From positions 1-52,305 of IMG/VR virus record IMGVR_UViG_3300007735_000752: 52,305 bases of DNA. One strand, written 5' to 3'. Below the pieces are notes generated by a model. That model was not told where the DNA came from, searched no databases, and saw nothing but the letters and a program-made list of their open reading frames with translations. This DNA is from a virus. The stretch's first letter is position 1; each line of letters begins with the position of its first letter. Shown here piece by piece: positions 45,069 to 52,305 of the stretch. Made by a program: the position numbers and the translations under genes.

Positions 45069-45084
45069 TAGTTTGAGTTATATT
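45057..45084 (+). promoter_or_regulatory. Leaderless promoter for the 45091 gene
   Basis: TTGACA (45057-45062), 16 nt, TATATT (45079-45084), 6 nt to ATG. Confidence 0.85.
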
Positions 45085-50094: not shown

Positions 50095-50185
50095 ACTAGG
50101 GTCGTCTAACTGGTTAAGACCCACGACTTATACTCGTGAAGCTCTAGATTTGAGCGTAATGAAGGTTCGAATCCTTCCCCTAGTA
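50095..50185 (+). tRNA. tRNA with UAU anticodon and long variable arm
   Basis: Acceptor ACTAGGG/CCCTAGT, D stem GTCT/AGAC, anticodon stem CACGA/TCGTG with loop CTTATAC (anticodon UAU, would read AUA Ile), variable arm with a GCTC/GAGC stem, T-arm GAAGG-TTCGAAT-CCTTC, discriminator A. The long variable arm is expected for Leu, Ser or Tyr tRNAs, not Ile. CCA is not encoded. Confidence 0.8.
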
Positions 50186-50187
50186 TG

Positions 50188-50211
50188 TAACTCGTTATCA
50201 TTCAACGAATT
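50188..50211. repeat. Half of a bipartite element after the tRNA
   Basis: TAACTCGTTATCATTCAACG shares TAACTCGTTATC with half B of copy 2 at 48698 and contains a CGTT/AACG palindrome. No GC core. Confidence 0.4.
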
Positions 50212-50218
50212 ATTTTTA

Positions 50219-50246
50219 TTGACTATTTTTCAAAACATTGTATATT
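50219..50246 (+). promoter_or_regulatory. Leaderless promoter for the 50253 gene
   Basis: TTGACT (50219-50224), 16 nt, TATATT (50241-50246), 6 nt to ATG. Confidence 0.8.
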
Positions 50247-50252
50247 TAACCT

Positions 50253-50462
50253 ATGACAAACAACAAAACAGCACCATTCTATGTGATGAATGTGTTCGGT
50301 CAAGACCGAGCCGTTATCCTTAACACCTCAATCCGTATGTGTACAACCAAAGAGACTTGCTCTCTTAAAGAATTGGAGAACATCTCCAAGACTTTTGGAG
50401 TAGAGTTCTTTCAAGTGCCAAAACCTTCGAGCTTTCCTGCTAAAGTGGGGCAAGTAGTTTAA
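50253..50462 (+). CDS. Small hypothetical protein overlapping tRNA-Met
   Basis: 69 aa, MTNNKTAPFYVMNVFGQDRA. G/C-richer codons. Its last 15 nt, including the TAA, are the first bases of the tRNA-Met gene, so tRNA processing would cut the mRNA inside the frame. Function unknown. Confidence 0.6.
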   Translation: MTNNKTAPFYVMNVFGQDRAVILNTSIRMCTTKETCSLKELENISKTFGVEFFQVPKPSSFPAKVGQVV

Positions 50463-50519
50463 AGGTGAAACAGAGTACTCATAATGCTCCTAGTGCTGGT
50501 TCGAGTCCAGCCTTGCCCA
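50448..50519 (+). tRNA. tRNA with CAU anticodon (Met or Ile2)
   Basis: Acceptor GGGCAAG/CTTGCCC, D stem GTTT/AAAC, anticodon loop CTCATAA (CAU), T-arm GCTGG-TTCGAGT-CCAGC, discriminator A. Short variable loop. Not an initiator by its acceptor end. An Ile2 tRNA (lysidine, AUA) is an alternative. Confidence 0.9.
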
Positions 50520-50539
50520 CTTCTCCTTGTGCAGATTGG

Positions 50540-50644
50540 ATGCTCAACTCTTATAGTAAGCATGCCGAGATAACTCAAGAAGATATAGAATGGTATTTAA
50601 AAAACAAAAGCATTGACAAAAAACAAGAACAGGATAAACTATAA
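50540..50644 (+). CDS. Small hypothetical protein, 34 aa
   Basis: MLNSYSKHAEITQEDIEWYL, helical and Lys-rich end. Overlaps the promoter of the next gene. No clear ribosome binding site. Confidence 0.35.
   Translation: MLNSYSKHAEITQEDIEWYLKNKSIDKKQEQDKL
50613..50640 (+). promoter_or_regulatory. Leaderless promoter for the 50648 gene
   Basis: TTGACA (50613-50618), 16 nt, TAAACT (50635-50640), 7 nt to ATG. Confidence 0.65.
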
Positions 50645-50647
50645 ACT

Positions 50648-51034
50648 ATGAAACTAATGAAACAAAACCTCGGTGCCCATTGGGTTATCGGAATTAAAGG
50701 TAACAAGGATGAGATTGAGCAGTTCCACAATCGAGTCTATAACTGGGGCGGAACAAACGGAGAGCTTCAATGGATGAGCAATGATTTTGCTTATTTTTGG
50801 ATTACTCTGGAAAAGTTGGAGCGAGTAATGTTTAAGTATGTTATGAGCAGTTTGAGTGATAAACTTGGCAAGAAGTTCATTGGTGCTAAAGGTGGATTAA
50901 AAGCAGTTGCTATGAATCGTATCAAGAATACTATTGATAACATCCCAACTGAAAACTTTGTTCGCACAGCACAAGTCGAGGACATCTATTCCCTCGGCAC
51001 AATCTCTGCTGAAAAACTAGATCACGATAGTTAA
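50648..51034 (+). CDS. Hypothetical protein, 128 aa
   Basis: MKLMKQNLGAHWVIGIKGNK; N-terminal alpha/beta domain with WGGTNGELQWMSNDFAYFWI and a helical C-terminal half. Ends 6 nt before a tRNA gene. Function unknown. Confidence 0.6.
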   Translation: MKLMKQNLGAHWVIGIKGNKDEIEQFHNRVYNWGGTNGELQWMSNDFAYFWITLEKLERVMFKYVMSSLSDKLGKKFIGAKGGLKAVAMNRIKNTIDNIPTENFVRTAQVEDIYSLGTISAEKLDHDS

Positions 51035-51040
51035 TTTGAC

Positions 51041-51115
51041 GGCCTAGTAGACCAACTGGAAGCAGTCAAAGCACTTAAAATGCTTGTAGTATGGGTTCGA
51101 ATCCCATCTAGGCCA
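51041..51115 (+). tRNA. tRNA with UAA anticodon and short variable loop
   Basis: Acceptor GGCCTAG/CTAGGCC, D stem GAC/GTC, anticodon stem AAGCA/TGCTT with loop CTTAAAA (anticodon UAA, would read UUA Leu), variable loop only 5 nt (GTAGT), T-arm ATGGG-TTCGAAT-CCCAT, discriminator A. Leu tRNAs normally have a long variable arm, so the body looks class I. Confidence 0.85.
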
Positions 51116-51171: not shown

Positions 51172-51597
51172 ATGAGAAAATACAGACAATATTCAGATAA
51201 TGATATTATTAATTATTCTAAGCAAACTTATAGTATAGCTCAATTATTAATCAAATTAGATTTGAAGCCTAGTGGAGGTAACTATCTTAATATAAAAAGA
51301 TTATTACAGAAACTTAAAGTAAATACTTCTCATTGGAAAGGTCAAGCTTGGAATAAAGGGCAACAATTAAAGGATTGGTCAAAATATTCTCATCCAAAAT
51401 GCTTCAGAAAACATTTACTTAAAGAGCGCAATTTTAAATGTGAATCTTGTAATAGAAAAACTTGGAATAAAAAACAAATACCTTTAGAAATTCATCATGT
51501 AGATGGAGATAGAAGCAATAATAAGCTTGATAATCTTAAAGTTTTATGTTGTAATTGTCATGCTACAACTGGAACTTGGCGTAAACCAAAGTTTTAA
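51172..51597 (+). CDS. HNH endonuclease
   Basis: 141 aa. Cys pair CESCNRKTW, then IHHVDGDRSNNKLDNLKVLC and CNCHA give the zinc-binding HNH core (EIHHVDG catalytic His). An N-terminal DNA-binding-like helix region precedes it. Free-standing between two tRNA genes, a typical place for a homing endonuclease. TAATAT lies 5 nt before ATG. Confidence 0.9.
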   Translation: MRKYRQYSDNDIINYSKQTYSIAQLLIKLDLKPSGGNYLNIKRLLQKLKVNTSHWKGQAWNKGQQLKDWSKYSHPKCFRKHLLKERNFKCESCNRKTWNKKQIPLEIHHVDGDRSNNKLDNLKVLCCNCHATTGTWRKPKF

Positions 51598-51601
51598 TGT
51601 C

Positions 51602-51675
51602 GCTCCTATAACTCAACTGGATCGAGTAACAGATTTCTAATCTGTAGGTTGCAGGTTCGAGCCCTGCTAGGAGCG
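51602..51675 (+). tRNA. tRNA-Arg (UCU)
   Basis: Acceptor GCTCCTA/TAGGAGC, D stem ACTC/GAGT, anticodon stem ACAGA/TCTGT with loop TTTCTAA (UCU, reads AGA), T-arm GCAGG-TTCGAGC-CCTGC, discriminator G. Matches the AGA-rich codon use. Confidence 0.95.
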
Positions 51676-52166: not shown

Positions 52167-52194
52167 TTGTGAAAAAACAAAGGTATGGTATATT
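52167..52194 (+). promoter_or_regulatory. Extended -10 leaderless promoter for the 52201 gene
   Basis: TTGTGA (52167-52172), 16 nt ending TGG, TATATT (52189-52194), 6 nt to ATG. Confidence 0.65.
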
Positions 52195-52200
52195 TAACCT

Positions 52201-52305
52201 ATGAACAAAATCAAATTAGCAATCGTATATGCAACCTCATATCTGAAACACTTCGTCCTTTTCCTTTTTGGGCAAAGGTATTTAATCGAATACAAACCCT
52301 ACGGC
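52201..52305 (+). CDS. 3' partial CDS at the window edge
   Basis: Begins MNKIKLAIVYATSYLKHFVL and runs off the end after 35 codons. Hydrophobic N terminus. Leaderless by position. Identity cannot be judged. Confidence 0.5.
   Translation, partial: MNKIKLAIVYATSYLKHFVLFLFGQRYLIEYKPYG

Follow-up and report, generated by a model that had tools for sequence, protein, structure and literature searches.

The stretch of DNA analysed here, called the window below, is a 52,305-base virus fragment from IMG/VR with a G+C content of 31%. Judged by its genes, which include ribonucleotide reductase, RIIA/RIIB and DNA ligase, its source is a large tailed phage. Four tRNA genes are located on the plus strand at its right end and were detected by both ARAGORN and Rfam (RF00005): a tRNA-Ile(UAU) of class II size (50095-50185; 91 nt, A73, without an encoded CCA), a tRNA with the anticodon CAU, either elongator Met or Ile2 (50448-50519), a tRNA-Leu(UAA) with a class I body (51041-51115), and a tRNA-Arg(UCU) (51602-51675). 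The Ile(UAU) and Leu(UAA) genes score 56.7 and 55.8 bits, respectively, and thus pass the Rfam gathering score of 29. Within the cluster, immediately 5′ of tRNA-Arg, lies a gene for an HNH endonuclease (51172-51597; phrog_10822).

Two further features of the window deserve mention. A 329-aa protein encoded at 13073-14062 matches the PHROGs entry “2-aminooxy adenylosuccinate synthetase” (phrog_1211, 2e-67) of the phage adenylosuccinate-synthetase family; the match falls into two segments, and the protein does not reach the length of the profile. Based on this match, the phage may make 2-aminoadenine (Z) precursors. In addition, the element TATATTTAACCTATGA occurs at 50241-50256 and 52189-52204, with further copies at 45079, 45665 and 25104, and mostly ends on start codons. 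Allowing up to three mismatches, we counted 10 matches compared with 2.7 expected, a number reached in none of 100 shuffled sequences. This element is likely a phage-specific promoter or leader.

An earlier note on this DNA had described the tRNA at 50095 as a class II body carrying UAU and the tRNA at 51041 as a class I body carrying UAA. Both descriptions hold: ARAGORN and Rfam detect the two genes at these places, the predicted fold of the former has a 22-nt variable region, and the latter (anticodon 51076-51078) has the 5-nt variable loop GUAGU (51086-51090). For the UAA gene, RNAfold alone favours a different pairing of the D and anticodon regions; its relatives show a regular cloverleaf. 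For the RNA at 50095-50185, the minimum free energy and centroid structures are a cloverleaf plus a fifth helix, the hairpin GCUC-UAGAUUU-GAGC (50141-50155), inside the variable region. The first, decoding anticodon arm (CACGA-CUUAUAC-UCGUG, 50122-50138) has UAU at 50129-50131 and both U33 and A37. The hairpin that follows it is itself anticodon-like, with GAU in the centre of its 7-nt loop (50147-50149), a feature absent from the earlier note, and with a pair, C50142-G50154, equivalent to C29-G41 of an anticodon stem. The linker GUAAU (50156-50160) joins it to the T arm; at 5 nt it is as long as the variable loop of class I tRNAs, and its last base is position 48, which pairs with A15.

Using the RIIA protein of the window, we recovered 24 related contigs. 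All six that span the tRNA cluster (RIIA about 94-69% identical) have retained the class II UAU gene together with the class I UAA gene, and the gene order Ile-CAU-(Lys)-Leu-Arg is common to the window and these six relatives. Because the pair is kept in every relative reaching the cluster, it is neither due to chance nor a local accident. The earlier note had regarded related phages with conventional versions of the same genes as evidence against its reading: close relatives show none, and among the remaining relatives a UAU gene occurs only in G022, which is distant (37% RIIA identity) and whose UAU tRNA is class I.

The UAU gene belongs to a larger family. A first scan of IMG/VR looked for UAU anticodons spaced from a T arm as in class II tRNAs; among the matches listed, acceptor, D and anticodon stems differ strongly, and the loop of the variable-region hairpin reads YAGAUNN in nearly all. 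When the scan was anchored on the D arm instead and left the variable region open, it returned 66 distinct UAU tRNAs, 62 of them class II and 60 with the motif. Overall, among 147 distinct class II UAU tRNAs obtained by searches that left the arm unspecified, 140 have a 7-nt variable-arm loop centred on GAU on at least three stem pairs; with all sets included, the count is 147 of 154. A few class II UAU tRNAs, at L009, L201, L484 and L046, have another arm loop. The conserved core extends one base beyond GAU, to AGAU. We define phage tRNA-Ile(UAU) with a GAU arm by a 4-bp hairpin whose third pair is C-G, a 7-nt GAU-centred loop and a 3′ linker of 5-6 nt; the window, with GCUC-UAGAUUU-GAGC-GUAAU, shows all of these.

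The GAU arm is restricted to UAU tRNAs. Among 347 class II arms of tRNAs with other anticodons only one has a GAU-centred loop, and this one (L328) is a misparsed UAU tRNA. Every fetched tRNA set had UAU fixed in its query. In 2.9 million IMG/VR contigs scanned for the GAU arm, using the T-arm start plus CCAGATTAG, four stretches had a base 34 other than U and two a base 36 other than U, both scans covering the whole collection, compared with more than 120 with UAU among the matches listed. The arm is not obligatory, since at least 30 phage UAU tRNAs are class I and lack it. Where loci were selected by a class I Leu tRNA, their UAU tRNAs are mostly class I (20 versus 3), so both UAU forms exist in phages. 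Extra variable arms, of 11-18 nt with small loops, are sometimes seen in phage tRNAs for Thr, Asn, Trp, Lys, Gly, Pro and Cys. A general drift of phage tRNAs toward long arms was considered and rejected, because the extra arms that many Thr, Asn, Trp, Lys and Gly tRNAs have carry other loops. The GAU loop is unlikely to pair with the T loop of its own tRNA, since T loops vary (GAAUC, GAUUC, GACUC, GAGUC) and GAU is constant.

In known phages, the family is found in Synechococcus phages S-SRM01 (L332, 3000-3089) and S-SKS1 (L333, 2996-3086) and in Lactobacillus phage LpeD (L334, 6000-6091), in each case as a tRNA-Ile(UAU) unannotated in the public record, and in Lactobacillus phage 3-521 and Levilactobacillus phage ENFP1, where it is annotated as tRNA-Ile. 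These Synechococcus and Lactobacillus phages were reached with two queries; a third query for the family gave no match among known phages, and the window's own cluster matched only tRNA-Arg and HNH genes there. GAU-arm UAU tRNAs also occur on a few bacterial contigs (L347, L369, L374 and L434), from Ruegeria, Mesorhizobium, a Hyphomicrobiales MAG, where the gene adjoins lepA, and one genome where it adjoins a glucodextranase gene. A vertically inherited host gene was rejected because the tRNA turns up sporadically, in 2 of 30 and in 1 of 3 genomes; the bacterial copies probably derive from transfer. The Ruegeria copy and two near-identical ones share a block common to their contigs with a differing upstream flank, and this block looks mobile.

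Within the family, the second arm is built with regular geometry. Across 140 sequences, its stem has three to five pairs, usually four, and is followed by the 7-nt loop; the 3′ linker to the T arm measures 5 nt in 110 and 6 nt in 30 cases, and the length of the 5′ linker ranges between 1 and 6 nt. Of 154 tRNAs, 107 have A-U and 12 have G-C at positions 15 and 48. The third stem pair from the loop, equivalent to 29-41, is C-G in 139 of 140 sequences and in all 22 body clusters, that is, groups below 80% similarity to each other. The same pair was C-G in 20 of 20 members of a later set, for which the search left it unspecified. The pairs flanking this invariant C-G covary, with a score of 0.796 compared with 0.150 after shuffling. 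Loop position 33 is A rather than U (U33 in 1 of 140), and position 37 is U in about 110 and A in 12 of 140. The modified base t6A37 is a strong determinant for IleRS. Because it usually lacks U33 and A37, the second arm is unlikely to decode.

We noticed the invariant C-G pair in the alignments first and consulted the published identity set of tRNA-Ile only afterwards. In bacteria, this set comprises A73, C4-G69, U12-A23, C29-G41, C/G34, A35, U36, A37 and A38, and the positions of highest information across life are 29-41, 34, 35 and 36 (PMC9976931). In the phage UAU family, A73 is present in 152 of 154 tRNAs, and the key positions C29-G41 and 34-36, as GAU, are found in the second arm.

The true anticodon arm of these tRNAs seems to have lost some of these features. 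C29-G41 is found in the UAU arm of 51 and A38 in 50 of 140 GAU-arm tRNAs, compared with 22 and 24 of 30 class I UAU tRNAs, which have a single anticodon arm; Fisher tests give 4e-4 and 1e-5, respectively, on sequences that are related. Counted by clusters, the difference for C29-G41 (6 of 22 versus 14 of 22) is weak at p=0.03 and that for A38 is not significant. Compared with clusters of Ile-GAU tRNAs, neither C29-G41 nor A38 differs significantly. The first arm may thus have been freed from the Ile identity positions, a weak trend when judged by clusters.

The earlier note had further suggested that the two genes had exchanged their arm class and that AUA and UUA might be partly reassigned in phage mRNAs. 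Neither idea is borne out. Phage loci with a UAU arm carry a class II Leu(UAA) gene in 58 cases and a class I one in 20; since a normal class II Leu(UAA) mostly stands beside the UAU arm, the two traits are independent and no exchange took place. The UAU and UAA genes represent separate, widespread phage families. As to reassignment, alignment columns among relatives give AUA as Ile and UUA as Leu. At 526 AUA sites aligned between the window and its relatives, the residues are I in 375, V in 91 and L in 21, much like at AUU sites, and AUA changes to AUU/AUC 103 times compared with 17 changes to UUA/UUG. UUA sites correspond to L in 902 of 1109 cases. A small comparison of NrdA/NrdB with six distant phages gives Leu for UUA (nine conserved columns of 13); for AUA it is too small, with 14 sites and two conserved columns, both Ile. 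AUA therefore behaves as an Ile codon in this phage group, and the tRNA itself would be expected to carry isoleucine.

The class I tRNA-Leu at 51041 can be regarded as an ordinary, common phage form that is read as Leu. In loci selected only by the D arm of the UAU tRNA, roughly a third of the Leu tRNAs are class I. Such tRNAs have A73 in 221 of 223 cases, and 125 of 223 show the D-arm pattern CCA..GG.AGA, compared with 7 of 1584 other class I tRNAs. The window gene combines a Leu anticodon, a short variable loop and A73 with the D arm GACCAACUGGAAGCAGUC, a variant of this pattern. In the sampled phage loci, class I bodies are also found in about half of the Leu(UAG) tRNAs and in most of those for Leu(CAA). 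Together with the extra arms on other isotypes, class I Leu tRNAs make the arm class a poor guide to isotype in phages. The alternative offered by the earlier note, synthetases that tolerate atypical bodies, came closer: the bodies are indeed atypical, but for the UAU gene the solution seems to lie in the unusual arm, which carries identity positions known to be used by IleRS.

Based on these observations, we propose that the phage tRNA has two heads, the UAU arm decoding AUA and the second arm mimicking the anticodon arm of tRNA-Ile(GAU) for the host IleRS, without lysidine; we put the probability of this reading at roughly 60%. The second arm follows the anticodon stem, leads into the T arm through a linker of class I length and copies the functional elements of the anticodon arm of tRNA-Ile(GAU), namely G34-A35-U36 in a 7-nt loop plus C29-G41. 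It would most likely serve as an identity element for the host isoleucyl-tRNA synthetase. Either arm could be stacked under the D stem; during charging, the second arm would take this place from the first, and after charging, the first arm with its U33 and A37 would pair with AUA on the ribosome. The sequence pattern suggests that codon reading and charging are divided between two arms of one tRNA. That identity and decoding reside on two anticodon-type arms in this way, IleRS reading GAU and the ribosome UAU so that the decoding anticodon is freed, seems to us somewhat more probable than its opposite.

Such a division would solve a known problem. UAU is generally avoided in prokaryotes, its U34 also risks reading AUG (PMC8879553), and bacteria read AUA with CAU carrying lysidine instead (PMC8879553; PMC11938285). 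The prevailing view attributes the avoidance to rejection by IleRS and possible AUG misreading, and unmodified tRNA-Ile(UAU) is reportedly uncharged in E. coli (PMC4810244). The second arm would get around this rejection, which applies to the charging enzyme of E. coli at least, and the phage would gain an Ile tRNA for AUA that works without lysidine made by TilS. Loss of TilS from cellular holders of the GAU-arm tRNA was looked for and not seen: all eight such genomes have TilS, so none of them shows a need for this tRNA. Our proposal is also weakened by the second loop, which mostly lacks A37 and has A33, and by the phage UAU tRNAs without the arm. If correct, it would represent a new principle of tRNA design, in which a second copy of the identity arm bypasses rejection of UAU, and would account for the way in which phages acquire an AUA tRNA that does not depend on modification by a host enzyme. 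The decoding anticodon could then be changed without loss of the amino acid, which would be useful for code engineering. Within the limited collection of papers searched, none was found to describe a tRNA that carries a second anticodon-like arm.

The constancy of the arm could also reflect binding to a partner other than IleRS, such as the ribosome, a modification enzyme, a defence nuclease for which the hairpin would be a decoy, or a phage protein, for instance to stop AUG misreading by the U34 tRNA. The AUG risk of UAU (PMC8879553), a loop without the A37 that IleRS likes and a conserved core that includes a base beyond GAU all fit such a role. It leaves unexplained, however, why the invariant positions are exactly 29-41, 34, 35 and 36 of the Ile identity set and why the first arm lost identity positions. 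Moreover, the arm is shared by phages that infect cyanobacteria, lactobacilli and other hosts, which argues for a universal partner. We consider this explanation possible but doubtful. That the arm is a mere relic, a duplicated tRNA-Ile(GAU) anticodon arm inherited and tolerated without function, would account for its resemblance to that arm, and common ancestry of all members is possible. But GAU and the C-G pair stayed fixed across 22 divergent body clusters while stem pairs 2 and 4 underwent compensating changes, which points to purifying selection and makes a relic very improbable.

The remaining alternatives concern what is charged and what is read. A long variable arm might be an identity element for LeuRS (or SerRS) and place Leu (or Ser) at AUA. 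The LeuRS of E. coli is not known to use the anticodon, and A73 is compatible with Leu. A precedent is the nematode nev-tRNA-Ile(UAU), which has a long variable arm and takes only Leu in vitro (PMC4300185). Yet the AUA columns of the phages are those of Ile/Val rather than of Leu or Ser, the GAU loop is foreign to Leu/Ser variable arms (its single occurrence among the 347 others being itself UAU), and the 5-6-nt 3′ linker is unlike the usual class II layout; Leu or Ser charging is accordingly improbable. A bifunctional decoder, whose second arm would read AUU/AUC on the ribosome, could draw on the 7-nt loop with GAU, but this loop lacks what decoding requires, a U-turn and a purine at 37 (U33 in 1 and A37 in 12 of 140), and we hardly give this idea any credence.

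The class I tRNA-Ile(UAU) of Mycoplasma mobile, whose IleRS accepts U34 (PMC4014445, PMC4810244), and that of lactic acid bacteria (cited in PMC9976931) share with the phage tRNA the anticodon UAU, AUA as Ile and, on the two-headed reading, independence from lysidine; the phage tRNA adds an arm with GAU and C29-G41. The nematode nev-tRNA-Ile(UAU) resembles it in UAU and the long variable arm (PMC4300185), but has a Leu-type arm and is charged with Leu; in the phages, the loop is GAU, the AUA columns are Ile, and decoding of AUA as Leu is not seen (L at 21 of 526 AUA sites). Allo-tRNAs (8/4 or 9/3; PMC7609411) also have long variable arms, and UAU is among their commonest anticodons; their T stems have four or three pairs, and since the T stem has five pairs in 147 of 147 class II UAU tRNAs, identity with allo-tRNA was rejected. 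The tRNA-Ile2 of T4-like phages is another phage-encoded AUA tRNA, but it relies on CAU modified to lysidine by TilS and a class I body (PMC1524935), in contrast to UAU and a second arm here; with UAU instead of CAU, the gene at 50095 is not of this lysidine type.

The class I tRNA-Leu at 51041 is like those of S-SKS1 and LpeD in UAA, the 5-nt variable loop and A73; we found no real difference apart from the slightly divergent D arm of the window gene. For the second arm of the tRNA-Ile(UAU), a parallel exists in mRNAs. The leader of E. coli thrS contains a hairpin similar to an anticodon arm that is bound by the synthetase. Binding of synthetases to anticodon mimics outside tRNA is described for HisRS and an mRNA hairpin (PMC6542539). 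These mimics regulate an mRNA, whereas the phage hairpin would sit in a tRNA and direct its own charging.
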